Assembly: GCA_017560425.1 (NCBI GenBank)
Contig: JAFZEX010000039.1
Span: 1 to 40,056 of the forward strand
DNA from: Alistipes sp.
Lineage (GTDB): Bacteria; Bacteroidota; Bacteroidia; Bacteroidales; Rikenellaceae
DNA length: 40,056 bases
Reading direction: 5' to 3'
The number at the start of each line of letters is the position of its first letter. Position 1 is the stretch's first letter. This document shows positions 11,336-36,890 of the stretch, in pieces. The notes beneath the pieces were generated by a model, which was given only the letters and a program-made list of their open reading frames with translations, searched no databases and was not told the origin of the DNA. Both the position numbers and the translations under genes were made by a program.

Positions 11336-11929
11336 ATGTCAAAGCTTCTTGATAACGTATGCTCTGAGCTTCAGCGACTTCCAGGTATTGGTCGCCGCAC
11401 AGCGTTGCGCCTCGCAATGCATATCCTCAAGATGGATACCGAGGTGGTAGACTCACTCTCTGAGAGCATCGCTCGCTTCCGCCACGACATACGCCACTGC
11501 CAAAGTTGCAACAACCTCTCTGACGAGGCTCTATGCCCCATCTGTAGCGATAGCCGCCGTGACCGCTCGGTGGTATGCGTCGTCGAGCAGGTTGCCGACC
11601 TTATGTCTATCGAGAATACGGGGCAGTATCATGGCATGTACCATGTCCTCGGTGGTGTCATCTCGCCGATGCAGGGCATAGGGCCTTCCGACCTCAAGAT
11701 CGACCTGCTGTGCGACAAGCTACTCACGGGCGAGATACGTGAGGTCATCGTGGCAATATCTACCTCTGTCGAGGGCGAGACCACGCTCTTCTACCTTCAG
11801 AACCGCCTCAAGGCATTCCCCGACGTTAAGGTTACTACCATCGCCCGAGGCATCGGCTTCGGCGACGAGCTCGAGTATGTCGATGAGCTGACTATTACAC
11901 ACGCCCTACTCAACCGCCGAGAAATATAA
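11336..11929 (+). CDS. recR: Recombination mediator protein RecR
   Basis: Acts with RecO (and RecF) to load RecA on single-stranded DNA during gap repair. The protein is 197 aa, the normal size. It has an N-terminal helix-hairpin-helix (LQRLPGIGRRTALRLA), a zinc finger with C55, C58, C67 and C70, and a Toprim domain beginning SVVCVVEQVADLMSIE with the characteristic YHVLGGVISPMQGIGP. The end of the gene is notable: the TAA stop runs directly into the left end of a 129-bp palindromic repeat. Confidence 0.97.
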   Translation: MSKLLDNVCSELQRLPGIGRRTALRLAMHILKMDTEVVDSLSESIARFRHDIRHCQSCNNLSDEALCPICSDSRRDRSVVCVVEQVADLMSIENTGQYHGMYHVLGGVISPMQGIGPSDLKIDLLCDKLLTGEIREVIVAISTSVEGETTLFYLQNRLKAFPDVKVTTIARGIGFGDELEYVDELTITHALLNRREI

Positions 11930-12056
11930 TTTGTTGTGATAAGCCGTAATCTGCGGCACATCTAAAAAGCTGACCACCACGGGCTGTACTAAGTGTACTA
12001 TCCCGTGGTGGTCACTTTTTAGATGCACCACATCTCACGGCTTCTAACAACAAATT
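11928..12056. repeat. Stop-codon-associated palindromic element, copy E1
   Basis: A 129-bp imperfect palindrome with ends AATTTGTTGT and ACAACAAATT. The centre is a roughly 21-bp stem with an A-tract on the left arm and a T-tract on the right (TGACCACCACGGG pairing with CCCGTGGTGGTCA), so it could act as a bidirectional terminator. The loop is CTGTACT-aagt-GTACTAT minus shared bases. Outer arms AAGCCGT/ACGGCTT pair, and both arms carry an unpaired ATCT motif at the same place. The first two bases are the last two of the recR stop codon. Confidence 0.85.
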
Positions 12057-12069
12057 TATGTGGTGAGTA

Positions 12070-12320
12070 ATGAGGAATTAGTAATTAGTAATAGTTTTTT
12101 AGGGACAATAGGGACGAAAGGGACGAAAGAGACAACAACGAAACTCGGGTATCAACTTTTTCTCTGTGATCTCTGTGGTCTCTACTGTCTTTGTTGTCTC
12201 TGCTGTCTTTAATCTCATCTTCCCCATCGTCCCTATCTTCCCCATATTACTAATCGCCCCTATCCGGAACTACCCAGCTATTCCCCAGCTTGCCCTCCTG
12301 AAAACCGCATTTAATCGCCT
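12070..12320. repeat. Degenerate GGGACGAAA and TCTCTGTGGTC runs, no gene
   Basis: A purine-rich block (GGGACAATAGGGACGAAAGGGACG, about 12103-12126) is followed by a pyrimidine-rich block (TCTCTGTGATCTCTGTGGTC and CCCTATCTTCCCC variants, about 12160-12290). This is the same purine-then-pyrimidine design as in the other low-complexity regions. The 79-aa open frame across it is composed of the repeats and is not credible as a gene. Confidence 0.6.
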
Positions 12321-12327
12321 CATTTTC

Positions 12328-12357
12328 TTGCTATTTGCAAATTTTTTACTACCTTTG
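12328..12357 (+). promoter_or_regulatory. Promoter of rplY-pth
   Basis: TTG at 12328-12330, a 19-base gap, then TACCTTTG at 12350-12357, fitting the Bacteroidota consensus. It leaves a leader of about 80 bases before the rplY ATG. The leader contains a short hairpin (CATAA-N7-TTATG, about 12386-12402); whether this is regulatory cannot be judged from one sequence. Confidence 0.65.
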
Positions 12358-12442
12358 CCCTCCCAAGCAGGCATCTATGGGGTCATAACATGTGATTATG
12401 ATTGAGTGGTGCTGAAGTTAAAATATTAATTATCAAACAATT

Positions 12443-13003
12443 ATGAAGACAATTCAGATTAACGGTACTGCACGTGCAAACTACGGCAAGAAGTTTGCTA
12501 AGGCAGCTCGTCGCGAGGGTCAGGTACCTTGCATCGTCTACGGCGGTGGCGCTGAGAAGGCATTTACTATCGACGCTAAGGAGCTTGCACAGCTTATCTA
12601 CACTCCTAACTCTTACATCATCGAGCTCAACATCGATGGCGTTGTAGAGAAGGCAGTTATGCGTGAGGTTCAGTATCACCCAGTTCGTGAGCAGGTTCTC
12701 CACGTAGACTTCTACCGTGTTCAGGAGGGTAAGCCAGTTGCTGTAAACGTTCCAGTACGCCTCACAGGTAACGCTGAGGGTGTTAAGATCGGTGGTAAGC
12801 TCGCTCTTTCTGCTCGTAAGCTCACAGTTAAGGCTTTGGTTGAGTTTATTCCAGATGAGATCGTTGTTGATGTTACTCCATTGAAGGTTGGTCAGACTAT
12901 CTTCGTTGGTGACCTCAAGCACGAGAACCTTACATTCGTTACTCCTGCGACAACTGCTGTTTGCGCCGTTCGTGTAACACGTGCTTCACGTGCTGCTCAG
13001 TAG
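12443..13003 (+). CDS. rplY: 50S ribosomal protein L25 (Ctc form)
   Basis: Ribosomal protein that binds 5S rRNA in the large subunit. The protein is 186 aa, the long Ctc-type form. The N-terminal L25 domain reads IQINGTARANYGKKFAKAAR with the GQVPCIVYGG turn, and a C-terminal TL5 beta domain covers about residues 95-180. Codon use is strongly optimised. pth lies 26 bases downstream, the common rplY-pth pairing. The antisense open frame of 179 aa over this gene is a shadow. Confidence 0.95.
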   Translation: MKTIQINGTARANYGKKFAKAARREGQVPCIVYGGGAEKAFTIDAKELAQLIYTPNSYIIELNIDGVVEKAVMREVQYHPVREQVLHVDFYRVQEGKPVAVNVPVRLTGNAEGVKIGGKLALSARKLTVKALVEFIPDEIVVDVTPLKVGQTIFVGDLKHENLTFVTPATTAVCAVRVTRASRAAQ

Positions 13004-13029
13004 TAGTTAGCTGCTTAAAACGAATCGTT

Positions 13030-13593
13030 ATGAAGTATCTTGTTGTCGGGTTGGGCAACATCGGTGCCGAGTATGCCGCTACCCGCCACAACATAGGTTT
13101 TAGAGTGTTGGATGCCTTAGCTGAGGCATCCAATATCTCTTTTACGACAGTGCGTTATGGTGCTATGGCTACGCTCAAGCACCGTGGACGTACGGTCTAC
13201 CTGCTCAAGCCCTCGACATATATGAACCTCTCGGGCAAGGCGGTGCGCTATTGGATGGAGCAGGAGCGTATTCCTCGCGAAAACCTCCTCGTCATCTCTG
13301 ACGACATAGCCCTTCCTTTTGGCACCTTCCGCATGCGCAAGAATGGCTCGGAGGGTGGTCACAACGGACTACGCAACATCACCGAGATGCTTGGCGACAA
13401 CCAGTACTCACGCCTTAGGTTTGGTGTTGGTGGCGACTTCCCACGAGGTCACCAGGTCGATTATGTCCTTGGCGACTTTTCCGACGAGGAGAACAAACTG
13501 ATGCCCGAGCGCCTCAAGCTCTTTGGCGATGCCGTTCTCTCGTTTGTGTCGATAGGTGTAGATCGCACGATGAACACCTACAACGGTAAATAA
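13030..13593 (+). CDS. pth: Peptidyl-tRNA hydrolase
   Basis: Releases tRNA from prematurely dropped peptidyl-tRNA. The protein is 187 aa from ATG 13030. Family motifs visible are GLGNIGAEYAATRHNIGF (catalytic His and the following Asn), LLKPSTYMNLSGKAV, ISDDIALPFGTFRMR and GSEGGHNGLRNI. The frame stays open upstream to 12961, but that overlaps rplY and adds a Cys-rich non-homologous leader, so ATG 13030 is preferred. It is co-transcribed with rplY and ends in a strong terminator. Confidence 0.96.
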   Translation: MKYLVVGLGNIGAEYAATRHNIGFRVLDALAEASNISFTTVRYGAMATLKHRGRTVYLLKPSTYMNLSGKAVRYWMEQERIPRENLLVISDDIALPFGTFRMRKNGSEGGHNGLRNITEMLGDNQYSRLRFGVGGDFPRGHQVDYVLGDFSDEENKLMPERLKLFGDAVLSFVSIGVDRTMNTYNGK

Positions 13594-13630
13594 AAAATGC
13601 TGACTCTGAAGTTGGGGTCAGCATTTTTTT
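13594..13630. terminator. Bidirectional intrinsic terminator
   Basis: AAAAATGCTGAC, a 12-base loop, then GTCAGCATTTTTTT. There is an A-tract on the left and a T-tract on the right, so it can end pth on the plus strand and the META lipoprotein gene on the minus strand. Confidence 0.9.
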
Positions 13631-13645
13631 GTTTGTGTCTGTTCG

Positions 13646-14074
13646 TTACTCCGTCGCCGCCTTGAGTATCGCCACGAGCGTGCCATTCGAGAGGAGTAGC
13701 ATGTGGTCGGCATCCATCTCGTAGTGGGTAACGCCCTCGAGCATATCCATAAAGGCGTTCTCCAGCTCGTAGTTTTTGCAGAGCTTGCGTGTAGAGCCTA
13801 ACTCCTTGATTTCGAGGCTGCGGCTGGGTGTTGTCTGGTATATTGCCGAGAGTATGTTGCAGTCGCCCTTGCCCACGATGCTGCCGTCGCTCTTGAACGT
13901 TAGGCGATAGCTGTCGCCCTCTGCCACGATGTCCTTTGCCATAAGCTGCACCAGCTGCCACTCGGTGCCCACGAGGGGCTTTACCAACTTGCTACGCTTG
14001 CGACAGTCGCAGCAGCCTGCGACGAGGAGTGCAGAAATGAGGAGTATGAGCGAAAATAGTTGTGTTCGTTTCAT
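13646..14074 (-). CDS. META/HslJ-domain lipoprotein
   Basis: A 142-aa predicted lipoprotein. The N-terminus MKRTQLFSLILLISALLVAGC carries a lipobox (LVAGC), so it should be lipid-anchored in the envelope. The rest is one META (HslJ-like) domain: GTEWQLVQL at the start, LTFKSDGSIVGKGDCN in the middle, and a C-terminal LLLSNGTLVAILK strand. Such domains are linked with heat and novobiocin tolerance in enterobacteria, but the biochemical role is unknown. The start at 14074 is set by the signal peptide; the open frame extends 16 codons upstream into the promoter. It diverges from ridA across a symmetrical promoter. Confidence 0.85.
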   Translation of the reverse strand: MKRTQLFSLILLISALLVAGCCDCRKRSKLVKPLVGTEWQLVQLMAKDIVAEGDSYRLTFKSDGSIVGKGDCNILSAIYQTTPSRSLEIKELGSTRKLCKNYELENAFMDMLEGVTHYEMDADHMLLLSNGTLVAILKAATE

Positions 14075-14091
14075 AGTTTTGACAAAATTCG

Positions 14092-14110
14092 TTATCTTTG
14101 TGACAAAGAT
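14092..14110. promoter_or_regulatory. Palindromic divergent -7 elements for ridA and the META lipoprotein
   Basis: TATCTTTGT-G-ACAAAGATA is a perfect palindrome around one base. Each strand therefore reads TATCTTTG, the -7 consensus, so one 19-bp sequence supplies overlapping divergent promoters. ridA starts 30 bases to the right and the lipoprotein gene 18 bases to the left. Confidence 0.6.
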
Positions 14111-14139
14111 AGTACAAAACACTAAAAACTAATACGAAA

Positions 14140-14514
14140 ATGAAAAAAGTTATCGCATCACCTTTGGCTCCTAAGGCCGTAGGTCCTTACTCACAGGCTA
14201 TCGCTCACGACTCAACACTCTACATCTCTGGTCAGCTTCCTATCGACGGCGCTACAGGCGTTATGGCAGAGGGCGTTGAGGCGCAGACACGCCAGGCACT
14301 CACTAACCTTGGCTATATCCTTAACGAGGCTGGCTACTCTTTCGACGACGTGGCTAAGACAACAGTTCTTCTTGCCGACATCGCAGACTTCGCTGCAATG
14401 AACGCTATCTACGCTGAGTTCTTCACAGGCGACAAGCCAGCACGTATCTGCTATCAGGTTGCAGCACTTCCTATGGGTGCACGTGTGGAGATTGATGCTA
14501 TCGCCATCAAGTAA
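14140..14514 (+). CDS. ridA: RidA family reactive imine/enamine deaminase
   Basis: Hydrolyses reactive 2-aminoacrylate and related imines produced by PLP enzymes, releasing ammonia. The protein is 124 aa, full length. Motifs are PKAVGPYSQAI at the N-terminus, YISGQLPID, the central NLGYILNEAGYSFDDVAKTTV, and the C-terminal PARICYQVAALPMGARVEIDAIAI with the substrate-binding arginine of RidA. Codon use is optimised. The TAA stop runs directly into palindromic element E2. Confidence 0.95.
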   Translation: MKKVIASPLAPKAVGPYSQAIAHDSTLYISGQLPIDGATGVMAEGVEAQTRQALTNLGYILNEAGYSFDDVAKTTVLLADIADFAAMNAIYAEFFTGDKPARICYQVAALPMGARVEIDAIAIK

Positions 14515-14641
14515 TTTGTTGTGATAAGGGGTCATCTTTGACCTATCCCAAAAGTTGAGCACCCGAGGCTGTACTATTTGTACTATCCTCGGGTGCTCAC
14601 TTTTGCGATAAGCCAAATCTAACCTCTTCTAACAACAAATT
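14513..14641. repeat. Stop-codon-associated palindromic element, copy E2
   Basis: A 129-bp element with ends AATTTGTTGT/ACAACAAATT starting within the ridA stop codon. The central stem GAGCACCCGAGG/CCTCGGGTGCTC differs in sequence from E1 but is equally well paired. The loop CTGTACT..GTACTAT is the same. Both arms again carry ATCT opposite each other. A-tract and T-tract flank the stem. Confidence 0.85.
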
Positions 14642-14768
14642 ATTTCTTGTGATAAGGGCGCATCTGCGACCTTTCAATCAAAGCTCCGAATGAGCAGTAC
14701 TTCGAGTACAGCCCATCCGGAGCTTTTTCATGTCAAGGCCACATCTGCGACCCTTCTAACAAGAAATA
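14641..14768. repeat. Palindromic element, copy E3 (core inverted)
   Basis: A 128-bp element sharing its first base with E2 and ending ACAAGAAATA. The termini are TATTTCTTGT/ACAAGAAATA. The stem is AAAGCTCCG/CGGAGCTTT. The core reads AGCAGTAC-ttcga-GTACAG, which on the minus strand is CTGTAC..GTACT, so the core has the opposite orientation to E1, E2, E4 and E5. Both arms carry ATCTGCGACC. Confidence 0.8.
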
Positions 14769-14777
14769 GCGCGCTGA

Positions 14778-14915
14778 GATAGTGAACTTAGAGAATTTAA
14801 GGAGTTTAGGGAGTTTAAGGAGGGCGCTATCATCATTTGTCTGCAAGGTATTATCCCTAAATTCATTAAGTTCCCTATCTTCACTAATCTCACTATCCAC
14901 TACTAATTACTATTT
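14778..14915. repeat. Degenerate GGAGTTTAG/CCCTAAATTC runs before iorA
   Basis: A purine block (variants of GAATTTAAGGAGTTTAGGGAG, about 14785-14825) is separated by about 40 bases from a pyrimidine block (CCCTAAATTCATTAAGTTCCC, about 14853-14875), so the region can form a loose hairpin. It follows E3 directly. No gene is present between ridA and iorA. Confidence 0.6.
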
Positions 14916-14993
14916 GCTCATTAAACAAAGCGTTGTAGATACCTCTCTTCTCACTTTTTTTCTCTTTTATTTCTTAGAATAAGAAAAAAGTTG

Positions 14994-15001
14994 TAACTTT
15001 G
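14994..15001 (+). promoter_or_regulatory. -7 element for the iorAB operon
   Basis: TAACTTTG fits TAnnTTTG and lies 48 bases before the iorA ATG. I see no convincing TTTG at the -33 distance; the upstream sequence is T-rich. Confidence 0.5.
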
Positions 15002-15049
15002 ACAAATAGACAACCTTAAAAAGATAACAAACCTAAAACATTTTGAGAT

Positions 15050-16669
15050 ATGAGAAAACTACTTCTCGGTGACGAGGCCATTGCTCAGGCCGCTATCGAC
15101 GCTGGTCTATCAGGTGTCTATGCCTATCCAGGTACTCCGTCTACCGAAATTACTGAGTTCATTCAGCTACGTGAGGAGAAGCGTGGCGATGCTGAGAACA
15201 AGATTTGCTGCCGCTGGGCAACTAACGAGAAGACCGCTATGGAGGGTGCTCTCGGTATGTCGTACATGGGCAAGCGTGCATTGGTATGTATGAAGCACGT
15301 TGGTATGAACGTGGCTGCCGATCCATTCGTAAACTCTGCTATGACAGGCGTTAATGGTGGTTTGGTTGTTGTTGCTGCCGACGACCCATCTATGCACTCA
15401 TCACAGAACGAGCAGGACTCTCGCTTCTATGGTAAGTTCGCCATGATGCCAATCTTCGAGCCATCGAACCAGCAGGAGGCTTACGAGATGACACGTGCTG
15501 CATTCGAGCTTTCGGAGGCTGTTAAGCTTCCTGTGTTGATGCGTGTAACTACACGTATGGCTCACTCACGTGCCGTTGTTGAGGTTGCGGAGACTCCTCG
15601 CAAGCAGAACGACATTAAGCGTCCTGAGGATGTTCGCACATGGATCTTGTTGCCAGCATTTGCTAAGAAGCGCTATGTTCAGCTTCTCGCTCAGCAGGAC
15701 GACCTTATGAAGGCTGCTGTTGAGTCAAAGTTCAACCACTACCGCAAGGGTACAAACCCTGAGCGTGGCGTTATCGCAACAGGTATCGCTTACAACTACT
15801 ACATGGAGAACTGCGCAAACTGCGACGAGCGTAGCGTATTGAAGGTGTCACAGTATCCACTTCCAGTAGCTCTTATCGAGAAGATGGTTGAGGATGGCGC
15901 TAAGGAGATCCTCGTTATGGAGGAGGGTCAGCCTGTTGTTGAGGAGATGGTACGTGCCATCGTTCCTTCGACAGTTAAGGTTTTGGGCCGTCTTACTGGC
16001 GACCTTCCACGTGTTGGCGAGCTTAACCCTGACTCTGTTCGCAAGTCGTTGGGCATGGCGGCATTGGAGAACCTCGAGGCTGACGACATCGTTGTAGCAC
16101 GCCCACCAGCATTGTGCCAGGGCTGTGGCCACCGTGATATGTACAAGGCGTTGAACGAGGTTGCTGCTGAGTACGAGAACCCACGCATCTTCGGCGATAT
16201 CGGTTGCTACACTTTGGGTGCTTTGCCTCCATTCCAGGCTCTTCACGCTTGTGTCGAGATGGGTGCTTCAATCACCATGGCTAAGGGTGCTGCTGATGCA
16301 GGTCAGTTCCCAGCATTCGCAGTTATTGGCGACTCTACATTCACTCACTCAGGTATCACAGGCTTGTTGGATTGCGTAAATGCTAAGGCAAATGTTGTTA
16401 TCATCATCTCTGATAACCTCACTACAGGTATGACCGGTGGTCAGGACTCAGCAGGTACAGGTAAGATTGAGGATATCTGCCGTGGCGTAGGTGTTGCTCC
16501 TGAGCACGTACATGTTGTGGTGCCTCTACCAAAGAACATGGAGGAGATCAAGGATATTCTTCGTAAGGAGATCGAGTACAACGGCGTATCAGTAGTAATC
16601 CCACGTCGTGAGTGTATCCAGACAGCTAAGCGTCATGCTAAGGCACGTGCAGCTGCAAAGAAGGAGTAA
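15050..16669 (+). CDS. iorA: Indolepyruvate:ferredoxin oxidoreductase, alpha subunit (without ferredoxin domain)
   Basis: TPP-dependent subunit of a 2-oxo acid:ferredoxin oxidoreductase that decarboxylates aryl-pyruvates to aryl-acyl-CoA and reduces ferredoxin. The N-terminal LLLGDEAIAQAAIDAG and YAYPGTPSTEI are typical of IorA. The TPP site is seen as CQGCGHRDMY, GDIGCYTLG, VIGDSTFTHSG and ISDNLTTGMTGGQDS. The protein is 539 aa and ends in a basic tail. The C-terminal [4Fe-4S] domain (CxxCxxC repeats) of classical IorA, which runs to about 600 aa or more, is not present. Electron transfer must therefore use another path, or this is a Bacteroidales short form. First gene of a likely four-gene operon. 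Confidence 0.9.
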   Translation: MRKLLLGDEAIAQAAIDAGLSGVYAYPGTPSTEITEFIQLREEKRGDAENKICCRWATNEKTAMEGALGMSYMGKRALVCMKHVGMNVAADPFVNSAMTGVNGGLVVVAADDPSMHSSQNEQDSRFYGKFAMMPIFEPSNQQEAYEMTRAAFELSEAVKLPVLMRVTTRMAHSRAVVEVAETPRKQNDIKRPEDVRTWILLPAFAKKRYVQLLAQQDDLMKAAVESKFNHYRKGTNPERGVIATGIAYNYYMENCANCDERSVLKVSQYPLPVALIEKMVEDGAKEILVMEEGQPVVEEMVRAIVPSTVKVLGRLTGDLPRVGELNPDSVRKSLGMAALENLEADDIVVARPPALCQGCGHRDMYKALNEVAAEYENPRIFGDIGCYTLGALPPFQALHACVEMGASITMAKGAADAGQFPAFAVIGDSTFTHSGITGLLDCVNAKANVVIIISDNLTTGMTGGQDSAGTGKIEDICRGVGVAPEHVHVVVPLPKNMEEIKDILRKEIEYNGVSVVIPRRECIQTAKRHAKARAAAKKE

Positions 16670-16699
16670 CGGGGCTAACAACATTAAACGAACATTATC

Positions 16700-17281
16700 A
16701 TGAAGAAAGATATTATTTTGGCAGGCGTCGGCGGACAGGGTATCTTGTCGATTGCCACAGTCATTGGCGAGGCAGCTATGGCTGAGGGTTGGAACATCAA
16801 GCAGGCTGAGGTTCATGGTATGAGCCAGCGTGGTGGCGATGTGCAGAGTAACTTGCGCCTAAGCACCGAGCCTATTGCCTCTGACCTTATCGCAAAGGGT
16901 GGTGCTGACATCATCATCTCGTTGGAGCCTATGGAGGCTTTGCGCTACTTGGAGTATTTGAAGAAAGATGGTTGGGTGGTTACATCTAACGTTCCTTTCA
17001 TCAACATTCCTAACTATCCTAACGAGGAGGAGCTCAACAAGCACCTCGCAGCGTTGCCACACTGCGTGTCACTAAATGTTGAGGAGCTTGCTAAGGAGGC
17101 TGGTGCGCCACAGCAGGCTGCTAACATGGTGTTGTTGGGTGCTGCTATTCCTATGCTTGACATCGAGTTTGAGAAAATCGAGGCAGGTATCCGTCGTATC
17201 TTCGCTCGCAAGGGTGAGGAGGTAATCGAGAAGAACCTTGCTGCTGTACGTGCAGGCTATGACAACTCAATCAAAAAATAG
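16700..17281 (+). CDS. iorB: Indolepyruvate:ferredoxin oxidoreductase, beta (gamma-domain) subunit
   Basis: Partner of IorA, 193 aa, consisting of the pyruvate:ferredoxin oxidoreductase gamma-type domain. Diagnostic segments are ILAGVGGQGILSIATVIGEAA and QAEVHGMSQRGGDVQSNLRL, conserved in IorB and related subunits. It begins 30 bases after iorA and is followed 7 bases later by an aminotransferase gene. It should form an IorAB complex in the cytoplasm. Confidence 0.92.
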   Translation: MKKDIILAGVGGQGILSIATVIGEAAMAEGWNIKQAEVHGMSQRGGDVQSNLRLSTEPIASDLIAKGGADIIISLEPMEALRYLEYLKKDGWVVTSNVPFINIPNYPNEEELNKHLAALPHCVSLNVEELAKEAGAPQQAANMVLLGAAIPMLDIEFEKIEAGIRRIFARKGEEVIEKNLAAVRAGYDNSIKK

Positions 17282-17288
17282 CAAGACC

Positions 17289-18605
17289 ATGGAGAGACCA
17301 TTAGATAAGCAAACCGTAGATAACATCTGTATTGCCAACGGTCTTCGCAATGCTAAGGAGCTTGGTGCGGCATCTATCCGCCAGTTTGTGAGCGTTGTTA
17401 AGGATATCGAGGCTAAGACGGGTGTCGAGTATATCCGTATGGAGATTGGTGAGCCAGGCCTTCCTGCCGAGATGATCGGTATCGAGGCTGAGCACGAGGC
17501 GTTGTTGGCTGGTTGCGGTTCGAAGTACCCACTCATCACAGGTATCGAGCCTTTGACCAAGGAGGCATCACGCTTTGTTAAGGCATTTATCAACCTCGAC
17601 ATTCCTCCTATGTGCTTCGTGCCTACAGTAGGCTCTATGCAGGGTGCTTTTGCCAGCTTCATGGCACTTGCTCAGATGCGCAAGGATCGTGATACTATCC
17701 TCTTTATCGACCCAGGCTTCCCTGTTCAGAAGATGCAGTGCAAGGTGCAGGGTATTCGCATCGAGTCGTTCGACGTTATCGACTATCGTGGCAAGAAACT
17801 CGAGGAGAAGCTCGAGGAGATTCTCTCGTCAGGTCGTGTTGCGGGTATGATCTACTCTAACCCTAACAACCCTACATGGATGTGTCTTAACGATGAGGAG
17901 CTCGAGATTATTGGTCGCATGGCTACCAAGCACGATGTTATCGTTGTTGAGGACTTGGCTTATCTAAACATGGACTTCCGTGAGGACCGCTCGAAGCCTT
18001 TCGAGGCGCCTTACCAGCCATCTGTTGCTCGCTACACTGAGAACTGCATCCACCTCTTGTCAGGTTCGAAGATGTTCTCGTATGCGGGTCAGCGTATCGC
18101 TGTTGTGGCTATGAACCCAGCGCTTGCTGAGCGTTGCTACGAGGGCTTTGCCGAGCGCTATGGTAACGATGGTCAGTTCCGTCGCAACTTCATCTTCAAC
18201 ATTCTTTATGTTCTCTCATCGGGTGTGCCTCACTCAGCACAGTATGCATTGGCTGCTATGTTCCGTGCTGCATCTGATGGTCGCCTCGACTTCGTGGGCC
18301 ACACACGTGAGTACGCACGTCGTGCACAGCGTGTTAAGGAGATCATGATTAAGAATGGCTTCCACATTGTCTACGACAAGGACTGCGAGCAGGAGGTTAG
18401 CGATGGCTTCTTCTTCACGTTCGGCTATAAGGATATGACCGGCGAGCAGCTTATCAACAAGCTTATCTACTACGGTATCTCGGCTATCACACTCACACCT
18501 ACCGGCAGCTCACGTGAGGGCTTGCGTGGTTGCGTGTCGATGATTTCGGACTATCAGTACGACGAGTTGGATAAGCGTTTGCGTCTATTCAGCCAAGACT
18601 ATTAA
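17289..18605 (+). CDS. PLP-dependent aminotransferase, class I/II
   Basis: Cytoplasmic fold-type I aminotransferase of 438 aa. It shows the family motif NPNNPTW (about 191-197), the PLP-interacting Glu-Asp pair (VVEDLAY, 221-222), and the lysine that should bind PLP in LLSGSKMFSYAGQR (K261). ATG 17289 is chosen because the open frame upstream overlaps iorB. Placed between iorB and a CoA-transferase, it probably supplies the 2-oxo acid (for example phenylpyruvate or indolepyruvate) to IorAB. Its exact amino donor is inferred from this context only. Confidence 0.85.
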   Translation: MERPLDKQTVDNICIANGLRNAKELGAASIRQFVSVVKDIEAKTGVEYIRMEIGEPGLPAEMIGIEAEHEALLAGCGSKYPLITGIEPLTKEASRFVKAFINLDIPPMCFVPTVGSMQGAFASFMALAQMRKDRDTILFIDPGFPVQKMQCKVQGIRIESFDVIDYRGKKLEEKLEEILSSGRVAGMIYSNPNNPTWMCLNDEELEIIGRMATKHDVIVVEDLAYLNMDFREDRSKPFEAPYQPSVARYTENCIHLLSGSKMFSYAGQRIAVVAMNPALAERCYEGFAERYGNDGQFRRNFIFNILYVLSSGVPHSAQYALAAMFRAASDGRLDFVGHTREYARRAQRVKEIMIKNGFHIVYDKDCEQEVSDGFFFTFGYKDMTGEQLINKLIYYGISAITLTPTGSSREGLRGCVSMISDYQYDELDKRLRLFSQDY

Positions 18606-18613
18606 TGTGTAAT

Positions 18614-18638
18614 AGGGCTGCCCGCTTAGGACAGCCCT
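18614..18638 (+). terminator. Intercistronic hairpin (possible attenuator)
   Basis: AGGGCTGcCC-GCTTA-GGaCAGCCCT forms a strong hairpin 8 bases after the aminotransferase stop and 17 bases before the CoA-transferase ATG. The following bases (TCTTAAACT) are only weakly T-rich, so it is more likely a partial terminator or an mRNA-stabilising structure than a full stop. Confidence 0.5.
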
Positions 18639-18655
18639 TCTTAAACTATAAGAGT

Positions 18656-29137: not shown

Positions 29138-29155
29138 GTAAGGCATTGTGTCGGT

Positions 29156-30544: not shown

Positions 30545-30610
30545 ACTCTTTATATATTTTATTTCGATTTTTGTTCGTTATCTTAGGCGTAGCAACGCCA
30601 TAATATCGTG

Positions 30611-30618
30611 CAAAATTA
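30611..30618 (-). promoter_or_regulatory. Possible -7 element of asnS
   Basis: Reads TAATTTTG on the minus strand, matching TAnnTTTG, 66 bases upstream of the asnS ATG. No clear -33 TTTG. Confidence 0.4.
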
Positions 30619-30637
30619 CTAAAAAAATTATAAACGA

Positions 30638-30668
30638 TTGCATACTTATCTGCTTTTTTGTACCTTTG
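30638..30668 (+). promoter_or_regulatory. Promoter of the GH2-like gene
   Basis: TTG near 30638-30640, about 20 bases, then TACCTTTG at 30661-30668, a good Bacteroidota promoter. The ATG is 15 bases further on. Confidence 0.6.
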
Positions 30669-30683
30669 TGCTAAATTGATTAT

Positions 30684-32012
30684 ATGAAAAAAGTCACATT
30701 ATACACTTTTGCTCTCCTTGCTACGCTCCTCGTAGCACCCCTCGAGCTTATGGCGCAGGCGCGCATCGCCCGCTCCGAGTTTATCTGTTACGATAAGCGT
30801 GAAGATGCTCAAAGCGACATCCGCACAAAGATAGACAACTACATTGCTGTTAGCCCCGAGCTACAGTTCGAAGAGCCTACAGGCACGGTGCGTGCGGTCT
30901 ACGAGCAGCAGATCGAGGTGCCCGCAGCATGGAACGACTTTAGCGCCTACCTCCACATGGAGAACGTGGGTGCCGACTACGCGATATTTATCAATGGCAA
31001 GCAGATTTGCTCCTCTATCGATAAGTTCTCGCCCGCCGACCTCTATATATCGCCCTACCTCGACCAGGGAGCTAACACCCTCGCCGTGGTTGTTGTTGCC
31101 GAGCCATATATGGAGCGTCTTGCGGAGGGCTTGACCATTGCCCAGCGCACAAAGTTCGAGAACTGCTACATCTTTGCGCAGCGCCGTGTGGGTGTCTACG
31201 ACTTCAACGTGCGCCTACTGCCCGTGTTGGATAAGGATTATGGCCGCCTACAACTCGACATCACCGTGGAGAATAGCTTCACCACCGACGAGGAGCTCGA
31301 GCTCGGTTACGACCTCTACGACCCCGATGGCAAGCTTGTGGATTATACCGTTAATAAGTTCACCTTCGAGGCTAACTCACGTGACACCGTTACGTTTAAG
31401 CCCTATAGCTATAACTCGAACCACTTCCGCTGGTCGGCAACAAACCCTAAGCTCTACAGCCTGATGATATATGTTAAGCGTGGCGGTGCGGTGCGTGAAT
31501 ATATCCCCATTAAGGTGGGTATGGCAGAGTATGGCTTTAACGACAACGGCGAGATATTACTTTCGGGCAAGCCGCTGAAACTTAACAAGCAAACCTACAA
31601 CTCGGCAAAGAGTAAGACCACAACCGAGCAGGAGATAAAGGCGCTCAAGGCAAAGGGTATAAACTGCCTATGTCCCGAGTATCCGCAGCCTAAGTGGTTC
31701 TACTCATTGTGCGACGCTATTGGCATCTACGTCATCGATTGTGCCGCCCTCGCCTCGCCATCGTCGGCTGACAATCGTGACATCAACGGCACGCCATCGA
31801 ACGACCCGCTGCTCGTTGATGAGTACCTTATGCGTGTTGAGGCTATGTATCGCCGTGCGCAGAATCATGTGTCGATCATTGCATTCTCGCTCGGCGGCAA
31901 CATCGGCAACGGATATAATATGTATAAGGCATACGAACTCCTCAAGAGCTATGGCGACAGCCGTCCAATAATCTTTGATGGGGCTCAGGGCGAGTGGAAC
32001 TCAGATATTTAG
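30684..32012 (+). CDS. GH2-like protein lacking catalytic residues
   Basis: Exported 442-aa protein with the layout of glycoside hydrolase family 2: a signal peptide (to about MAQA), a sugar-binding jelly-roll (about 60-175), an immunoglobulin-like domain (about 185-280) and the start of a TIM barrel from about 285. The barrel is incomplete. The acid/base motif, normally SLGNE, reads SLGGNIGNG (402-410), so the Glu is replaced by Asn406, and the protein ends about 30 residues later, before the nucleophile strand. It is therefore probably a non-catalytic carbohydrate-binding relative, or a decayed gene whose frame has stayed open. rlmH starts 2 bases after its stop. Confidence 0.78.
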   Translation: MKKVTLYTFALLATLLVAPLELMAQARIARSEFICYDKREDAQSDIRTKIDNYIAVSPELQFEEPTGTVRAVYEQQIEVPAAWNDFSAYLHMENVGADYAIFINGKQICSSIDKFSPADLYISPYLDQGANTLAVVVVAEPYMERLAEGLTIAQRTKFENCYIFAQRRVGVYDFNVRLLPVLDKDYGRLQLDITVENSFTTDEELELGYDLYDPDGKLVDYTVNKFTFEANSRDTVTFKPYSYNSNHFRWSATNPKLYSLMIYVKRGGAVREYIPIKVGMAEYGFNDNGEILLSGKPLKLNKQTYNSAKSKTTTEQEIKALKAKGINCLCPEYPQPKWFYSLCDAIGIYVIDCAALASPSSADNRDINGTPSNDPLLVDEYLMRVEAMYRRAQNHVSIIAFSLGGNIGNGYNMYKAYELLKSYGDSRPIIFDGAQGEWNSDI

Positions 32013-32014
32013 CT

Positions 32015-32488
32015 ATGAACATCGAGCTTATTGTTGTCGGCAAGACCGACATGAAGGAGGTCGAGGCACTTGTGACGATGTACACCAAGCGCCTAAACCA
32101 CTATGTCAAGTTTGCGATAACCACGCTTGCTGACGTGCGCAACACCCGCAAACTCTCGGAGGCAGAGCAGAAGCGTCTAGAGGGTGAGCAGATACTTAAG
32201 CTTATAAGCGATGCCGACCACCTCATGCTCCTCGACGAGCATGGTGCCGAGCTCCGCTCTATCGAGTTTGCCGACATGCTTCAGCGCCGAATGTCGGCGG
32301 GCACTAAGCGCCTTGTCTTTGTTATCGGTGGTCCTTATGGCTTTAGCGACGCTGTCTATCAGCGTGCTAATAGCAAGCTCTCGCTCTCTAAGATGACCTT
32401 CTCGCACCAAATCGTGCGTGCGATATTTACGGAGCAGCTCTACCGAGCCTTTACTATTCTAAAGAACGAGCCTTACCACCACGAGTAA
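32015..32488 (+). CDS. rlmH: 23S rRNA pseudouridine-1915 N3-methyltransferase
   Basis: SPOUT-family methyltransferase acting on helix 69 of 23S rRNA in assembled ribosomes. The protein is 157 aa, the usual length. Features are the N-terminal IELIVVGKTDMKEVEALVTMYTKRL, the LLDEHGAELRSIEFAD strand, and the knotted SAM-binding motifs VFVIGGPYGFSDAVY and LSLSKMTFSHQIVRAIFTEQLYRA. ATG 32015 is preferred over the upstream start inside the previous gene. The TAA stop runs directly into palindromic element E4. Confidence 0.96.
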   Translation: MNIELIVVGKTDMKEVEALVTMYTKRLNHYVKFAITTLADVRNTRKLSEAEQKRLEGEQILKLISDADHLMLLDEHGAELRSIEFADMLQRRMSAGTKRLVFVIGGPYGFSDAVYQRANSKLSLSKMTFSHQIVRAIFTEQLYRAFTILKNEPYHHE

Positions 32489-32617
32489 TTTGTTGTGATA
32501 AGGGGTCATCTTTGACCTGTCCCAAAAAGTTGAGTACCCGAGGCTGTACGTTTGAGTACTATTCTCGGGTGCTCACTTTTGCGATAAGCCAAATCTAATC
32601 CCTTCTAACAAGAAATA
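32487..32617. repeat. Stop-codon-associated palindromic element, copy E4
   Basis: A 131-bp element whose left end is identical to E2 (AATTTGTTGTGATAAGGGGT...) and whose right end is of the E3 type (ACAAGAAATA). The stem is GAGTACCCGAG/CTCGGGTGCTC with one mismatch, and the loop CTGTAC..GTACTAT is kept. A-tract and T-tract flank the stem. It starts in the rlmH stop codon. Confidence 0.85.
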
Positions 32618-32626
32618 GTGCGCTGA

Positions 32627-32850
32627 TTGAGGTGGTAGATTAAGTAGTTTAGTGAATTTAATGAAATTAGGGAGTTTAGTGATAGTCTTTCCCTAAGTTC
32701 CTTAAATTCCCTATTCTCCCTATCTGTCCCATCTATCCCATTTATCCCATTCGTCCCATCTTTCCCATAAAATAAATATCGTGCGAAGCACACCTTACTT
32801 TTCACTTTTCACTTTTCACCTCTCACTTTCCCCCACCCTCCTCCCCCCCC
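32627..32850. repeat. Degenerate GGGAGTTTAG/CCCTAAGTTCC and TATCCCAT runs
   Basis: A purine block (TAGTTTAGTGAATTTAATG, GGGAGTTTAG, about 32645-32680) is followed by a pyrimidine block (CCCTAAGTTCC, CCTATCTGTCCC and TATCCCATT repeats, about 32690-32768) and then by CACTTTT repeats and a C-run to 32851. The block directly follows E4. No gene is present. Confidence 0.6.
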
Positions 32851-33033
32851 CAAAAAAAGGAACTGCCCCACGAATGGGGCAGCTCACGGACACAAACAAT
32901 CTTAACTTTACACTACTAATTTTTTACACCAATTTTTACATCTCGTTTAATCTATTCTCTCAATTCTATATATTATTAACCCTCTCTTTTTTTTCGTTCG
33001 CCACGCTCGTTTTGTGGCCTTATTTCCTTGTTT
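32851..33033 (-). ncRNA. Candidate small non-coding RNA
   Basis: On the minus strand a full promoter (TTTG, 20 bases, TATATTTG at 33071-33040) is followed about 180 bases later by an intrinsic terminator (CTGCCCCA-ttcg-TGGGGCAG then TTCCTTTTTTT, 32882-32852). The predicted RNA begins near 33033. It has no open frame worth noting: the only ATG near the middle is followed at once by TAA. A 5' hairpin (GCCAC-N9-GTGGC, about 33016-32998) and an A-rich middle are visible. AAGGAA near the 5' end can pair with TTCCTT at the 3' end, as in rod-like regulatory RNAs. The identity is unknown. Confidence 0.55.
32852..32885 (-). terminator. Intrinsic terminator on the minus strand
   Basis: A perfect 8-bp stem CTGCCCCA/TGGGGCAG with a 4-base loop, followed on the minus strand by TTCC and seven T residues. 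No protein gene on this strand is close enough to need it, which supports a short transcript ending here. Confidence 0.75.
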
Positions 33034-33039
33034 CTGGTG

Positions 33040-33071
33040 CAAATATATGGCGAAAAAAATAATCTTGCAAA
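33040..33071 (-). promoter_or_regulatory. Orphan minus-strand promoter
   Basis: Minus-strand TTTG (33071-33068), 20 bases, TATATTTG (33047-33040). It matches the consensus at both boxes with correct spacing, but no coding sequence follows. Confidence 0.65.
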
Positions 33072-33372
33072 TCAAAAATATTTATCATATTATAATCAAA
33101 ACTTATATCTGCCATCAAATGCTATCAGATTGTATGATATATAGTCTTATTATGAATATATTCCCAATGAATTTAACCATTAATGTATTTCGTCTGTCTT
33201 TGTAAATACCAGATGTTCAGTGCAGTTGTTTTTGAAAATAAGTAAAAATACTATTTTCTGTGTAAAAATTTTTACGCCTCAGCAAAAGTTTTTTGCGAAG
33301 CTCACTTTTTAGGGGTACTACGTAGCTGTGCTGAGCTGTTCGAAATATTTGTGAAGAAATTATTTCAAAAGT

Positions 33373-33403
33373 TTTGCGTTTATTGAAAAAAATAGTATAT
33401 TTG
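33373..33403 (+). promoter_or_regulatory. Promoter of lipA-lipB
   Basis: TTTG (33373-33376), 19 bases, TATATTTG (33396-33403), a textbook Bacteroidota promoter. lipA ATG is 27 bases downstream. The upstream in-frame start at 33374 lies inside the -33 box, so it cannot be used on this transcript. Confidence 0.8.
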
Positions 33404-33430
33404 CATCAATTGGAAAAAAGTGAACTAAAA

Positions 33431-34321
33431 ATGCCGAAGGTACCACAGAGAAGCGAATATCTACGTAAGCCCGACTGGCTAAAGATTAGCCTGAGGAGCA
33501 CGACAGATAGTGCAGAGGTCGAACAAATCGTCGAGGGCCGCTGTCTGCATACTATATGCACCAGTGGAATGTGCCCAAATAAGGCGGAGTGTTGGAGTCG
33601 TCGTACTGCAACATTTATGATTCTTGGCGACATCTGTACACGTAATTGCCGCTTCTGTGCTACGGCAACAGGTCGTCCGCTGCCTCCCGACGAGGCTGAG
33701 CCCGACAAGGTTGCCGAGAGCGTGAAGCTGATGGGACTGAAGCATGTTGTTGTTACATCTGTTACACGTGACGACCTCGAGGATCATGGTGCTGCAATCT
33801 GGGCACGCACCGTCGAGGCAATTCGTCGTGATAACCCCGATGCAACGATAGAGCTCCTTATTTCTGATATGGATGCCCGCCCCGAGCTATTGGACGTGGT
33901 GTTGGCATCTAACCCCGACATTGTTGGACATAACATCGAAACCGTCGAGCGACTAACCCCTGAGGTGCGTTCACGTGCGAAGTATCGTACGTCGCTTCAG
34001 ACCTTGAAGCACATTGCTGATAGTGGGGCAGTTGCCAAGAGCGGCTTGATGGTCGGTTTGGGCGAGGCTGAGGAGGAGATATTGCAGACACTTCGTGATT
34101 TGCGTGAGGTGGGTGTGAGCATTGTCACTCTCGGCCAATATCTTCGACCTACAAAGGAGCACTATCCTGTAAAGGCGTATATCACGCCCGAGAAGTTCGA
34201 AGAGTACCGACTTGCAGCTCTTGAGATGGGTTTCAGCTATTGTGCGAGTGCACCATTGGTGCGTTCGTCGTATTTGGCAGATGCCGCCCTTGAAGCTGTG
34301 AAGAAGGTATGCAAGAAGTAG
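33431..34321 (+). CDS. lipA: Lipoyl synthase
   Basis: Radical-SAM enzyme that inserts two sulfurs into protein-bound octanoyl groups to make lipoate. The protein is 296 aa. The auxiliary cluster cysteines are C43, C48 and C54 (CTSGMCPNKAEC) and the radical-SAM cysteines are C69, C73 and C76 (CTRNCRFC). Also visible are the VVTSVTRDDLEDHGA strand and the C-terminal RSSY (about 278-281), whose Ser ligates the auxiliary cluster. lipB overlaps its last 13 bases, so the two are translationally coupled. Confidence 0.97.
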   Translation: MPKVPQRSEYLRKPDWLKISLRSTTDSAEVEQIVEGRCLHTICTSGMCPNKAECWSRRTATFMILGDICTRNCRFCATATGRPLPPDEAEPDKVAESVKLMGLKHVVVTSVTRDDLEDHGAAIWARTVEAIRRDNPDATIELLISDMDARPELLDVVLASNPDIVGHNIETVERLTPEVRSRAKYRTSLQTLKHIADSGAVAKSGLMVGLGEAEEEILQTLRDLREVGVSIVTLGQYLRPTKEHYPVKAYITPEKFEEYRLAALEMGFSYCASAPLVRSSYLADAALEAVKKVCKK

Positions 34322-34995
34322 AAATCAGAGATTTACAGAGTATGGCGTATGGCGAGTGCTGGGATTTGCAGCGTTCGCTATTCGACGCATTGTGTCGTAA
34401 GAAGCTCGAGAAGAGCTTTGCGGACGACGAGCCACGTGGCACAATCCTTCTTGTTGAGCACCCCGCAGTATATACATTGGGTAAGAGCGGTAACGAGCAG
34501 AATATGCTTGTTACTGAGGAGTATCTCAAGGGTCTTGGTGCCGAGTTCTACCATATCGACCGTGGTGGCGACATCACGTTCCACGGTCCTGGACAGCTTG
34601 TCTGCTATCCAATTATCGATCTCGACGCAATAGGCATTGGCGTACGACGTTATATCGAGGCTTTGGAACAGTCGGTAATCGACCTTGCAAAGGAGTATGG
34701 CATTGAGGCACACCGCTCGGAGGGCGCTTCGGGTGTGTGGGTTAGCCAGGGTAGCCACCTTGTCAAGCTATGTGCTGTTGGCGTGCGTGCCTCACATGGC
34801 GTGACCATGCATGGCTTGGCTATGAATGTCTCTACCGACCTTAAGTGGTTCCACCTTATCAATCCATGCGGCTTCACCGATAGAGGTGTTTGCTCGCTCT
34901 CGACGCTTACCGGCCGAGAGGTTACCATGGAGGAGGTAAAGCCCAAGTTTATCAATTACTTAGCAAAAAATTTAAATGTTAAATATAAAAAATAA
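34309..34995 (+). CDS. lipB: Octanoyl-(acyl-carrier-protein):protein octanoyltransferase
   Basis: Transfers octanoate from acyl carrier protein to lipoyl domains of 2-oxo acid dehydrogenases or GcvH, the substrate for LipA. The protein is 228 aa. Motifs are HPAVYTLGKSG, RGGDITFHGPGQLVCYPI (85-102), the catalytic lysine in GSHLVKLCAVGVR (K153), HGLAMNVSTDL, and the catalytic cysteine in NPCGFTDRGVCSL (C187). It starts inside the end of lipA and is followed by recJ after 5 bases, so recJ is probably part of this operon. Confidence 0.96.
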   Translation: MQEVEIRDLQSMAYGECWDLQRSLFDALCRKKLEKSFADDEPRGTILLVEHPAVYTLGKSGNEQNMLVTEEYLKGLGAEFYHIDRGGDITFHGPGQLVCYPIIDLDAIGIGVRRYIEALEQSVIDLAKEYGIEAHRSEGASGVWVSQGSHLVKLCAVGVRASHGVTMHGLAMNVSTDLKWFHLINPCGFTDRGVCSLSTLTGREVTMEEVKPKFINYLAKNLNVKYKK

Positions 34996-35000
34996 TTATT

Positions 35001-36761
35001 ATGCCCATAGAGAAAAGATGGGTTGTCAAGCCGCAGGGCGATCGCTCGGTGGTGGAGTCGTTGGCTTCACACCTGGGTATGTCGCCAGTCTTGACCAACC
35101 TGCTAGTTCAGAGGGGCATAGACACCGTGGAGAAGGCAAAGAAATTCTTCTCGCCATCGCTCCGAGACTTGCACGATCCCTTCCTGATGAAGGACATGGA
35201 CAAGGCAGTGGAGCGTATCGAGAAGGCTGTGAAGGCGGGCGAAAAGGTTATGATCTATGGCGACTACGACGTAGATGGAACAACTGCCGTTTCGCTGGTC
35301 TACAAGTTCTTAAGCCAGATAGGACACAAGAATTTGTTGTTCTACATTCCAGACCGATATGTCGATGGATATGGCATATCAATCCGAAGCATCGACCATG
35401 CTGTACGTAAGGGCGTAACGCTGGTCATCGCCTTGGACTGCGGCATCAAAGCTGTGGAGAAGGTGGCCTATGCCAAGCAAAAGGGCGTAGATTTCATCAT
35501 CTGCGACCACCATTTACCTGCCGAGGAGATTCCTCAGGCAGTGGCTGTATTGGACCCCAAGCGTCCCGACTGCAACTATCCTTTCGATGAGTTGTCAGGC
35601 TGTGGCGTTGGTTTCAAACTCGTCGAGGCTTATGCACGACGCAACAACATTTCGTTCCGTGAGATCGAGCATCTCTTGGACTTGTTGGTTGTGAGCATCG
35701 CCTCTGACATTGTGCCTCTTGTGGACGAGAACCGCATTTTGGCATACTACGGACTTAAGAAGCTTAACTCGGCACCGTCGAAGGGCTTGCTCTCCATCAT
35801 CAAGATTTGTGGTTTGGAGGGTCACAACATCACCATCGACGACATCGTCTTTAAGATTGGCCCTCGTATCAACGCTGCGGGACGTATGCGTATGGACGAG
35901 GACGACGAGAATGCCGCACCTTCGGGCGGTCATGCTGCCGTGAGCCTTCTCATCGAGGGTAACGAGCGTGAGGCCATGAAGTTTGGCGACGTTATCGACT
36001 CGTATAACCAGGATCGCAAGAGCATCGACAGGAATGTTACGCAGGAGGCGCACGACTATGTCGAGGCAAATCCTGAGCTCAAGGCTCGTAAGAGCACGGT
36101 GATATATAACCCTAAGTGGATGAAGGGTATCGTGGGTATTGTTGCATCACGCCTTATCGAGACCTACTATCGTCCTACGGTTGTGCTCACCAAGTCGAAT
36201 GGCTTTGTTACGGGCTCGGCACGCTCTGTTGTCGGCTTCGACTTGTACCAGGCTGTCGAGTCGTGCTCCGATTTGTTGGAGAACTTCGGCGGACATATGT
36301 ACGCTGCGGGTCTTACTATGCGTGAGGAGAATGTCGAGGCATTCACTAAGCGCTTCAATGACTACGTGGAGAAGAATATCGACCCAAGCATTCTCGTGCC
36401 TCAGGTAGATATCGATAGCGAGTTGTTGTTCTCGGATATCACTGACGAGTTCCACCGCCAGCTCAACTCGTTCCAGCCCTTTGGCCCTGGAAATAGTGCT
36501 CCGGTGTTTGTCACTCGTGGTGCCAGCAACCGTGGCGATGCTAAGCTCGTGGGTGTTGAGTGCGACCACTTGCGCATGGACCTCATGCAGCGACAGAAGC
36601 CACACACGACAATCGCTGCGATTGCCTTCCAGCAGCCTACTCACTACGAGTGGGTGCGTGCGGGCAAGCCGGTAGCTGTCTGCTACCAGATTGTCGAGAA
36701 CCACTATCGTGGCACGGTGTCCCGACAGTTGCGTGTCAAAGATATCAAGCCCGAGCGCTAA
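35001..36761 (+). CDS. recJ: Single-stranded-DNA-specific exonuclease RecJ
   Basis: 5'-to-3' exonuclease used in mismatch, base-excision and recombinational repair. The protein is 586 aa. The DHH-family core is intact: MIYGDYDVDGTTA (D88, D90, D92), ALDCGIK, CDHHLP (D169, H170, H171) and VVSIASDIVPL. The DHHA1 domain follows, with GIVGIVASRLIE and NFGGHMYAAGLTM, then a C-terminal OB-fold with QPFGPGNSAPVF. Its TAA stop abuts palindromic element E5. Confidence 0.96.
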   Translation: MPIEKRWVVKPQGDRSVVESLASHLGMSPVLTNLLVQRGIDTVEKAKKFFSPSLRDLHDPFLMKDMDKAVERIEKAVKAGEKVMIYGDYDVDGTTAVSLVYKFLSQIGHKNLLFYIPDRYVDGYGISIRSIDHAVRKGVTLVIALDCGIKAVEKVAYAKQKGVDFIICDHHLPAEEIPQAVAVLDPKRPDCNYPFDELSGCGVGFKLVEAYARRNNISFREIEHLLDLLVVSIASDIVPLVDENRILAYYGLKKLNSAPSKGLLSIIKICGLEGHNITIDDIVFKIGPRINAAGRMRMDEDDENAAPSGGHAAVSLLIEGNEREAMKFGDVIDSYNQDRKSIDRNVTQEAHDYVEANPELKARKSTVIYNPKWMKGIVGIVASRLIETYYRPTVVLTKSNGFVTGSARSVVGFDLYQAVESCSDLLENFGGHMYAAGLTMREENVEAFTKRFNDYVEKNIDPSILVPQVDIDSELLFSDITDEFHRQLNSFQPFGPGNSAPVFVTRGASNRGDAKLVGVECDHLRMDLMQRQKPHTTIAAIAFQQPTHYEWVRAGKPVAVCYQIVENHYRGTVSRQLRVKDIKPER

Positions 36762-36890
36762 ATTTGTTGTGATAAGCCGCAGTCTGTGGCACATTGTAAA
36801 AAGCTGACCACCATGGGCTGTACTTCTTGTACTATCCCGTGGTGGTCCCTTTTTAGATGCACCACATCTCACGGCTTCTAACCATAAATT
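36761..36890. repeat. Stop-codon-associated palindromic element, copy E5
   Basis: A 130-bp element beginning AATTTGTTGTGATAAGCC at the last base of the recJ stop. The stem is TGACCACCATGGG/CCCGTGGTGGTCC with the kept loop CTGTACTtctTGTACTAT. The left half is close to E1. The right end (AACCATAAATT) is diverged from the usual ACAACAAATT. Confidence 0.82.

Follow-up and report, generated by a model that had tools for sequence, protein, structure and literature searches.

In integrons, cassette genes carry at their 3' end an attC site of fixed orientation with the core motifs RYYYAAC and GTTRRRY, and ERIC sequences are palindromic in form with a TA target. Passages of one paper describe attC sites as imperfect palindromes whose bottom strand is the one that preferentially folds, with shape taking precedence over sequence and with a variable tip structure (PMC8946536). 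Part of another places 446 of 4,072 E. coli repetitive extragenic palindromes (REPs) within 15 nt of a stop codon (PMC12306157), and RU-1 is described as a 127 bp enterobacterial repeat (PMC2759123). Excerpts from a further source report that ERIC at the 3' ends of Yersinia genes alters transcript levels, that Coxiella QMITE2 lies mainly in 3' untranslated regions, and that pneumococcal SPRITE resembles terminators (PMC10969869). The subject of this study is a palindromic element of 125-130 bp (length from a profile search) found at the stop codons of recR, ridA, rlmH and recJ in a stretch of Alistipes sp. DNA, contig JAFZEX010000039.1 of assembly GCA_017560425.1; "the window" denotes that whole stretch of 40,056 nucleotides. 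The explanation preferred here, to which we give an about even chance of being right, is a mobile palindrome of ~127 bp whose folded bottom strand is the working form, recognised by an enzyme, and which serves as a gene-end terminator.

The Alistipes element shares with integron attC sites the bottom-strand folding (135/136 copies, DNA energies) and the variable tip. Its host genes, however, are housekeeping genes rather than cassettes, attC core motifs were not seen by eye at its ends (which are TTTSTTGTGATAAG and CTTCTRACAASAAA), and no integrase scored above the cut-off in 10 genomes. It works like an attC site in folding, shape, tip and fixed orientation at gene ends, but is not an attC site by the tests made. 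ERIC and RU-1 are likewise intergenic, multi-copy and of similar length, a likeness that implies no sequence relation; the exact stop joint and the antisense bias are absent from the passages describing those repeats (PMC10969869, PMC2759123). REPs and their RAYT enzymes offer another parallel in palindromes at gene ends, but the Alistipes element is much longer, lies exactly on the stop, and has no Y1 transposase in 7 genomes. For QMITE2 and SPRITE, the descriptive passages of PMC10969869 contain nothing like its stop precision, strand bias or exchange of slot contents. Judged by titles and the opening lines of abstracts, no listed paper describes this hairpin family, in a collection that lacks the majority of preprints and subscription articles.

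Placement at stop codons

In the window, the left end TTTGTTGTGATAAG continues all four stops (recR, ridA, rlmH, recJ), recJ sharing one A, and a left-end 16-mer allowed up to 3 mismatches on both strands gave 8 matches against 0.26 expected. The positions that the earlier note on this DNA gave for the four copies agree with ours within 1-2 bases; its inventory was right for these four, but lacked a second tandem copy at 14641 and a truncated one at 36888. The window's genome (G000) is a 1.84 Mb draft in 50 contigs, 89.6% complete; all genomes used are drafts, so that absence from any single one is weak evidence. Its loci were selected by the left end (243 kb), and the sister species G118, sampled as stretches regardless of the element (369 kb, 19% of the genome), was used as a sample free of that selection. 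Exact TTTSTTGTGATAAG left ends number 92 in G000, while the backwards control gave 0, and a profile built from 79 full copies found 117 copies in the 243 kb of G000 and 34 in the 369 kb of G118.

Leading copies in G000 were judged if the upstream open frame had at least 60 codons. The final base of a same-strand stop is shared by 52/78 (51 TAA, 1 TAG), and a further 7/78 are entered by the upstream reading frame, which stops at the element's own TGA, although one of these apparent read-ins, C21:61952, may instead lie ~15 nt past the real stop. Altogether 76/78 lie within -10 to +11 of a same-strand stop, the remaining two being 25 and 53 nt downstream; the other G000 copies are 37 later array members and 2 that were not judgeable. 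Accidental open frames running into the element can be rejected, because TAA and TGA endings would be expected in equal numbers and were found at 51 vs 7. In G118 all 24 leading copies stand at same-strand gene ends, within -8 to +11, 14 of them with exact stop joints (12 TAA, 1 TAG, 1 TGA); a further 10 are later copies, and the profile search of the 369 kb placed none of the leading copies elsewhere. In six carriers, 30 loci include 1 tandem, and 24 of the 29 others have a stop within -8 to +11, 14 of them exactly. With distance and strand tabulated in this way across the genome and its relatives, copies of the left end are concentrated at same-strand stops, and the placement that the earlier note had described for four genes holds genome-wide.

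The precision does not follow from TAA alone. The G118 sample has 182 TAA stops and 1827 other non-coding TAA (both strands, outside elements), of which 346 lie in convergent spacers, themselves flanked by 45 TAA stops. Since non-stop TAA so outnumber TAA stops, a TAA-seeking element purged from genes would mostly sit off stops, which is not observed. An element is present at 23 of the 288 G118 gene ends with a neighbour; 16/23 are convergent, 7/23 are codirectional with at least 150 bp, and none has operon-like spacing, while 137 of the 265 element-free ends are codirectional with less than 60 bp.

Orthologous genes with and without the element indicate whose stop codon is involved. The recR and ridA loci compared were the best 30 of 176 and 169 matching genomes, respectively, and the rlmH loci were 14 of 80; among named records, those closest to the window in rlmH come mostly from metagenome-assembled genomes of Alistipes in ruminant guts. 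The element is directly at the rlmH stop in the window and in 5/14 Alistipes-type loci (9 being without it), at the recR stop in 5/30 loci and at the ridA stop in 10/30. The gene's stop stays at the same codon in rlmH and ridA, whose last residues are unchanged with or without the element, as are those of recR among the closest relatives; more distant recR proteins often extend further. The earlier note had proposed that the element supplies the final A or AA of the stop, and this is probably wrong: the three bases that precede TTT in the later copies of tandem arrays are TTA, ATA or TTC in 27/34 and TAA in 5, and joints of the types TAG/TTTG, TAG/TTTC and TGA/TTTC also occur. Because later copies mostly lack AA before TTT, the AA is read as part of the gene's stop, the element probably starting just after it.

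Of the same note's proposal of a TAA target, the link with TAA is upheld; TAA may be preferred as a target or may arise later. Counting by eye, with the window in all three sets and with rows related to each other, the stop of the filled rlmH, recR and ridA loci is TAA in 20/21 and TGA in 1, whereas the 54 unfilled loci have 24 TAA and 30 TAG; in some of these 54 a different palindrome lies close to the stop (recR in L169, L172, L184 and L185). Two ridA loci without the element, L230 and L232, read TAATTTAG directly at the stop. This sequence resembles a deletion between the left-end ATTT and AAATTTAG, the latter often being found behind the right end.

Kept slots and exchanged contents

An orthologue of the upstream gene is present in the G118 sample for 19 of 80 non-tandem G000 copies. 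The same stop carries an element in 16/19 of these slots and is empty in 3, and this sharing of positions is not chance, because only 23/288 G118 gene ends carry an element. The contents are another matter: 12/16 bodies in filled shared slots are less than 75% identical and 4/16 at least 85%, and each G000 copy of the shared slots has a relative of 0.91-1.00 identity elsewhere in G000 or G118. The comparison indicates that slots are inherited between the sister species while their contents are replaced. Thus the earlier suggestion of a 3' end module co-evolving with its gene survives for the slot, and fails for the content, which is usually different in the sister species.

Arrays in G000 and G118 (64 single, 33 double, 7 triple) run head to tail and often combine unlike subfamilies. 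At least one array (slot 1) is a local duplication with an identical loop, and C26:11805 and C5:37905 appear by eye to be mosaics of two subfamilies. The ends are terminal inverted repeats in which TTTxyz matches the copy's own right end in 92/128 copies, compared with 54.5 when re-dealt (maximum 68); core and end statistics used 133 of 137 copies, 4 lacking a TAC-N-GTA centre, and 128 for the terminal stem. Duplication of the stop codon or target was rejected, the left and right 3-mers being equal in 0/59 single leading copies (only 3-mers were compared).

Several observations concern incomplete or interrupted copies. At G000:C28:40154, L162 and L221 there are mini-elements of ~45 nt in which the two ends and a single small hairpin are retained but the core is missing; they look like deletions between the direct repeats CATCTGC of the two arms. 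In L191 and L244, in genomes G038 and G067, elements are nested at the same point of a second palindrome family (GCTGAATAAAAAGTGTATTTTGTCGTT...); read as an empty-site test, the nested copies of L191 and L244 show no clean duplication and may represent one event. The G000 contigs C1, C5, C6, C9, C15-C18, C20, C21, C23, C27, C32 and C46 end within ~600 bases of an element, and element copies probably break the draft assembly and are hence under-counted.

Of 268 genomes of the family, 53 show the strict pattern, and every one of these belongs to a single genus with 180 genomes. In G018, a species without the strict pattern, 3 weak copies were found in 400 kb and may be older relatives of the family; of these diverged copies (L281 17334-17566, L286 13135-13257), two are directly at stops, one TGA and one TAA.

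Strand bias, tip loop and wider relatives

The five window copies fold strongly as sense RNA (z -6.8 to -11.8), yet it is the antisense strand that folds better. With RNA energies this holds in 127/136 distinct copies (opposite in 8), by a mean of 14.5 kcal/mol, with 631 G.U pairs in the antisense against 62 in the sense fold; in 21 cluster representatives it holds in 20/21, with 99 G.U against 10. DNA energies favour the bottom strand in 135/136 copies and in 21/21 clusters. In the control, 75 nt behind other stops, the sense strand was better (G118 44 vs 10, G000 27 vs 8). Covariation was examined in set A1, 58 of 59 copies chosen at less than 90% identity from 137 full copies, with a 24-pair model whose source was the consensus fold of the tested alignment itself: 95.4% of 1379 cells are paired vs 82.0% when shuffled, double changes occur in 17/24 pairs, and the score of 0.399 vs 0.165 was reached by 0/500 shuffles and by no slid control. 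The antisense strand of the 58 copies has 145 G.U cells vs 19 A.C cells. An internal loop of type YAG/AUC is nearly invariant (one side has A and G each in 57 of the 58 copies, the other A in 57 and T and C in all 58), and tandem G.A-type mismatches occur in most copies. These data argue for a structural constraint on the strand antisense to the gene, a feature absent from the earlier note's reading. The bottom strand is the special one whether or not C-to-T mutation bias contributes.

The tip is TAC-N5/6-GTA in 133/137 full copies, with 53 different loops. In pairwise comparisons of copies by their arms, the pairs being non-independent, the loop was shared in 5 of 18 pairs without mismatch over ~86 arm positions and in 11 of 47 pairs with one mismatch; recurrent loops also exist, such as TTCGA in 15 copies.

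A related tip, CTCATTTAC-N4-6-GTAAACTSCG, occurs in 43/393 genomes and 32/207 genera of the order, while the backwards control gave 0; hairpins with the CTCATTTAC tip are often multi-copy and their loop is variable. In folding of 29 loci, one each from 29 of the 43 matching genomes, the tip lies at the apex of a predicted hairpin of 67-168 nt, and in 28/29 it is the antisense strand that has the better fold. With frames of at least 100 codons, 11/29 start no more than 26 nt from a same-strand stop and 6/29 end within 26 nt of a convergent stop, one locus belonging to both classes and the rest to neither. Because most of these loci are off same-strand stops, exact stop anchoring is a trait confined to the Alistipes family within this set; and because 28/29 are biased, many of them off same-strand stops, the element rather than its location seems to be the source of the strand bias. 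Homology of the Alistipes family with the wider tip set is suggested by this likeness rather than proven. A second palindrome in the window (8194-8318), and further ones in G118, L172 and L185, also adjoin stops, with a similar tip and better antisense folding; in the second-palindrome stretches of L166 and L169 the sense strand folds better.

Competing explanations and neighbouring repeats

Comparison of copies shows the element directly behind the stop, in the layout TAA/TTTSTTG...CAASAAA/T. If the preferred explanation holds, a recombinase or transposase would recognise the bottom strand by its folded shape, with single-stranded DNA as the most likely form, and would join the hairpin either to a stop codon or to a copy already in place. 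Once in place the core would be a two-way intrinsic terminator, and copies would survive only where termination is harmless. The exact stop joint is the least certain step: either insertion may be guided there, or early stop-anchored slots may have been kept while contents were exchanged. A wider version must be called speculative and is probably wrong as a whole: an order-wide Bacteroidales recombination system of orphan attC-like hairpins, shape-read on the bottom DNA strand and inserted at or exchanged between gene 3' ends, in which the joint of rumen Alistipes is the stop codon and a new tip loop per copying event is possible.

A number of results weigh against the preferred explanation. 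None of the enzymes looked for was found. For Y1/RAYT transposition, PF01797 matched 0/7 genomes (4 of them carriers), compared with 5/14 control genomes. For an integron integrase, TIGR02249 was weak in 10/10 genomes with none above the cut-off; nor was it above the cut-off in any of 14 controls, so that there is no positive control. For reverse transcription, PF00078 had no match in G000 and G118 (the richest carriers), G038 or G042; it is present in 61/180 genomes of the genus, including the carriers G123, G088 and G031, and by eye is not tied to carriage. Five of the 29 leading copies in the six carriers have no stop at the element; of these, L191 lies inside a different palindrome, L207 and L219, behind right-end-like sequence, are probably tandem copies, and L190 and L208 are either exceptions or unclear cases. 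Inside arrays, 4/29 leading and 4/34 later copies have equal left and right 3-mers. Support for arrays growing newest-first is weak (24 vs 11, 1 tie, p 0.04); terminal pairing is present in 67/74 leading vs 13/32 later copies in the selected G000 loci and in 12/22 vs 2/9 in G118 (p 0.13). The tip loop of like-bodied orthologous slots is the same in 2/4 and different in 2/4, and because two of four keep it, loop change with each copying event is unproven. Control 3' ends of G018 have no significant sense bias (55 vs 42), part of the G.U excess could come from a bias to C-to-T mutation when the bottom strand is exposed, and the data fit bottom-strand DNA and antisense RNA alike, the DNA form being the one we infer. 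Finally, mobility is read from comparison, no movement having been observed; loci without the element may have lost it, and some of the swapping could be due to homologous exchange with imported DNA.

That last possibility leads to ordinary bidirectional terminator modules, an old family spread by homologous 3'-end exchange, with selection favouring proximity to the stop and no dedicated enzyme. The earlier note had described a core of A-tract, GC stem and T-tract, and this is borne out, with a T-run of at least 4 in 98/133 copies and an A-run of at least 4 in 86/133; a two-way intrinsic terminator fits both this core and the positions at transcription-unit ends. A simple promoter and terminator scan of 11000-15200 picked out none of the element copies there. 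The restriction of G118 copies to transcription-unit-like ends and the 16/19 slots common to the sister species would also be expected of such modules. However, selection on spacing should scatter distances, yet 52/78 are exact; terminator selection would be expected on the sense strand, where it apparently operates at other G118 and G000 ends, whereas here the antisense strand is constrained; and exchange by gene homology alone leaves the origin of a slot unexplained, element-free orthologues being known, of which some are perhaps losses. On balance we regard terminator modules without an enzyme as unlikely.

Comparably doubtful is an antisense structured RNA, in which the bottom-strand hairpin would be carried by downstream or convergent transcripts and be processed or bound, shielding the upstream gene or yielding a regulatory RNA. 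The preponderance of G.U over A.C in the antisense fold, the conserved internal loop with tandem G.A, and the 16/23 slots that face a convergent gene all speak for RNA, but DNA energies give the same strand bias, 7/23 slots have no convergent neighbour, and exchange, arrays and the variable tip are left unexplained. No Rfam family reached the gathering score on either strand: Rfam 15, searched with both strands of the element, gave 0 matches for the window and only a tRNA in 8 further loci. At a relaxed threshold microRNA-type hairpins and one antitoxin RNA appeared below the gathering score and were taken as chance. A classical miniature inverted-repeat transposable element of a DDE transposase with a TAA target, in keeping with the terminal inverted repeats, the 125-130 bp length, the multiple copies, the link with TAA and a TAA repeated at 4/29 array junctions, is very improbable given equal flanking 3-mers in 0/59 single copies, a single orientation to the gene, and no leading G118 copy off gene ends despite abundant non-coding TAA.

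Short palindromic repeats are usually seen as scattered debris, while here they are tied to one codon position of ordinary genes. A hairpin-reading enzyme, stop-finding insertion and exchangeable gene 3' ends become testable questions, and with a similar tip in 32/207 sampled genera the answer would extend beyond one genus. The features of the window are collected in Table 1.

Table 1. Copies of the element, their host genes, and palindromes of another family in the window
Feature	Position	Strand	Details
Element copy at recR stop, single, full	11928..12056	+	Tip loop TAAGT 11990-11994; RNA fold -70.1 kcal/mol, z -11.8
Leading element copy at ridA stop	14513..14641	+	Fold z -10.9
Second head-to-tail copy behind ridA copy, different subfamily	14641..14768	+	Fold z -8.5
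Element copy at rlmH stop	32487..32616	+	Fold z -6.8
Element copy at recJ stop	36761..36889	+	Fold z -8.1
Truncated left part of second copy behind recJ copy	36888..36930	+	Repeat family D3, by sequence
recR, slot host gene	11336..11929	+	NCBIfam TIGR00615; open reading frame; TAA 11927-11929
ridA-type gene (Rid family), slot host	14140..14514	+	NCBIfam TIGR00004; open reading frame; TAA 14512-14514
rlmH, slot host gene	31994..32488	+	NCBIfam NF000990; open reading frame; TAA 32486-32488
recJ, slot host gene	35001..36761	+	NCBIfam TIGR00644; open reading frame; TAA 36759-36761
Palindrome of another family	8194..8318	+	Family D7; directly behind TAA 8191-8193; similar tip, same antisense bias
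Tandem second copy of D7 palindrome	8327..8441	+	98% identical; folded as 8319-8445

The window also holds other repeats and a further reading frame. A low-complexity palindrome of 9-nt units of the AGGGAGTTTA type, which often begins AGTGCGCTGA, occupies window positions 6-58, 241-284, 8445-8550, 14771-14896 and 32617-32740. It comes after elements at many loci, and the one behind rlmH is nearly unchanged in L080, though the intervening elements differ. The truncated element after recJ is adjoined by a reading frame of 311 amino acids (36941-37876) without an NCBIfam match. At 39578-39880 there are three tandem copies of ~110 bp (family D5), the second 89% and the third 87% like the first, and each has a promoter-like end, TATCTTTGCA or TACCTTTGCA.

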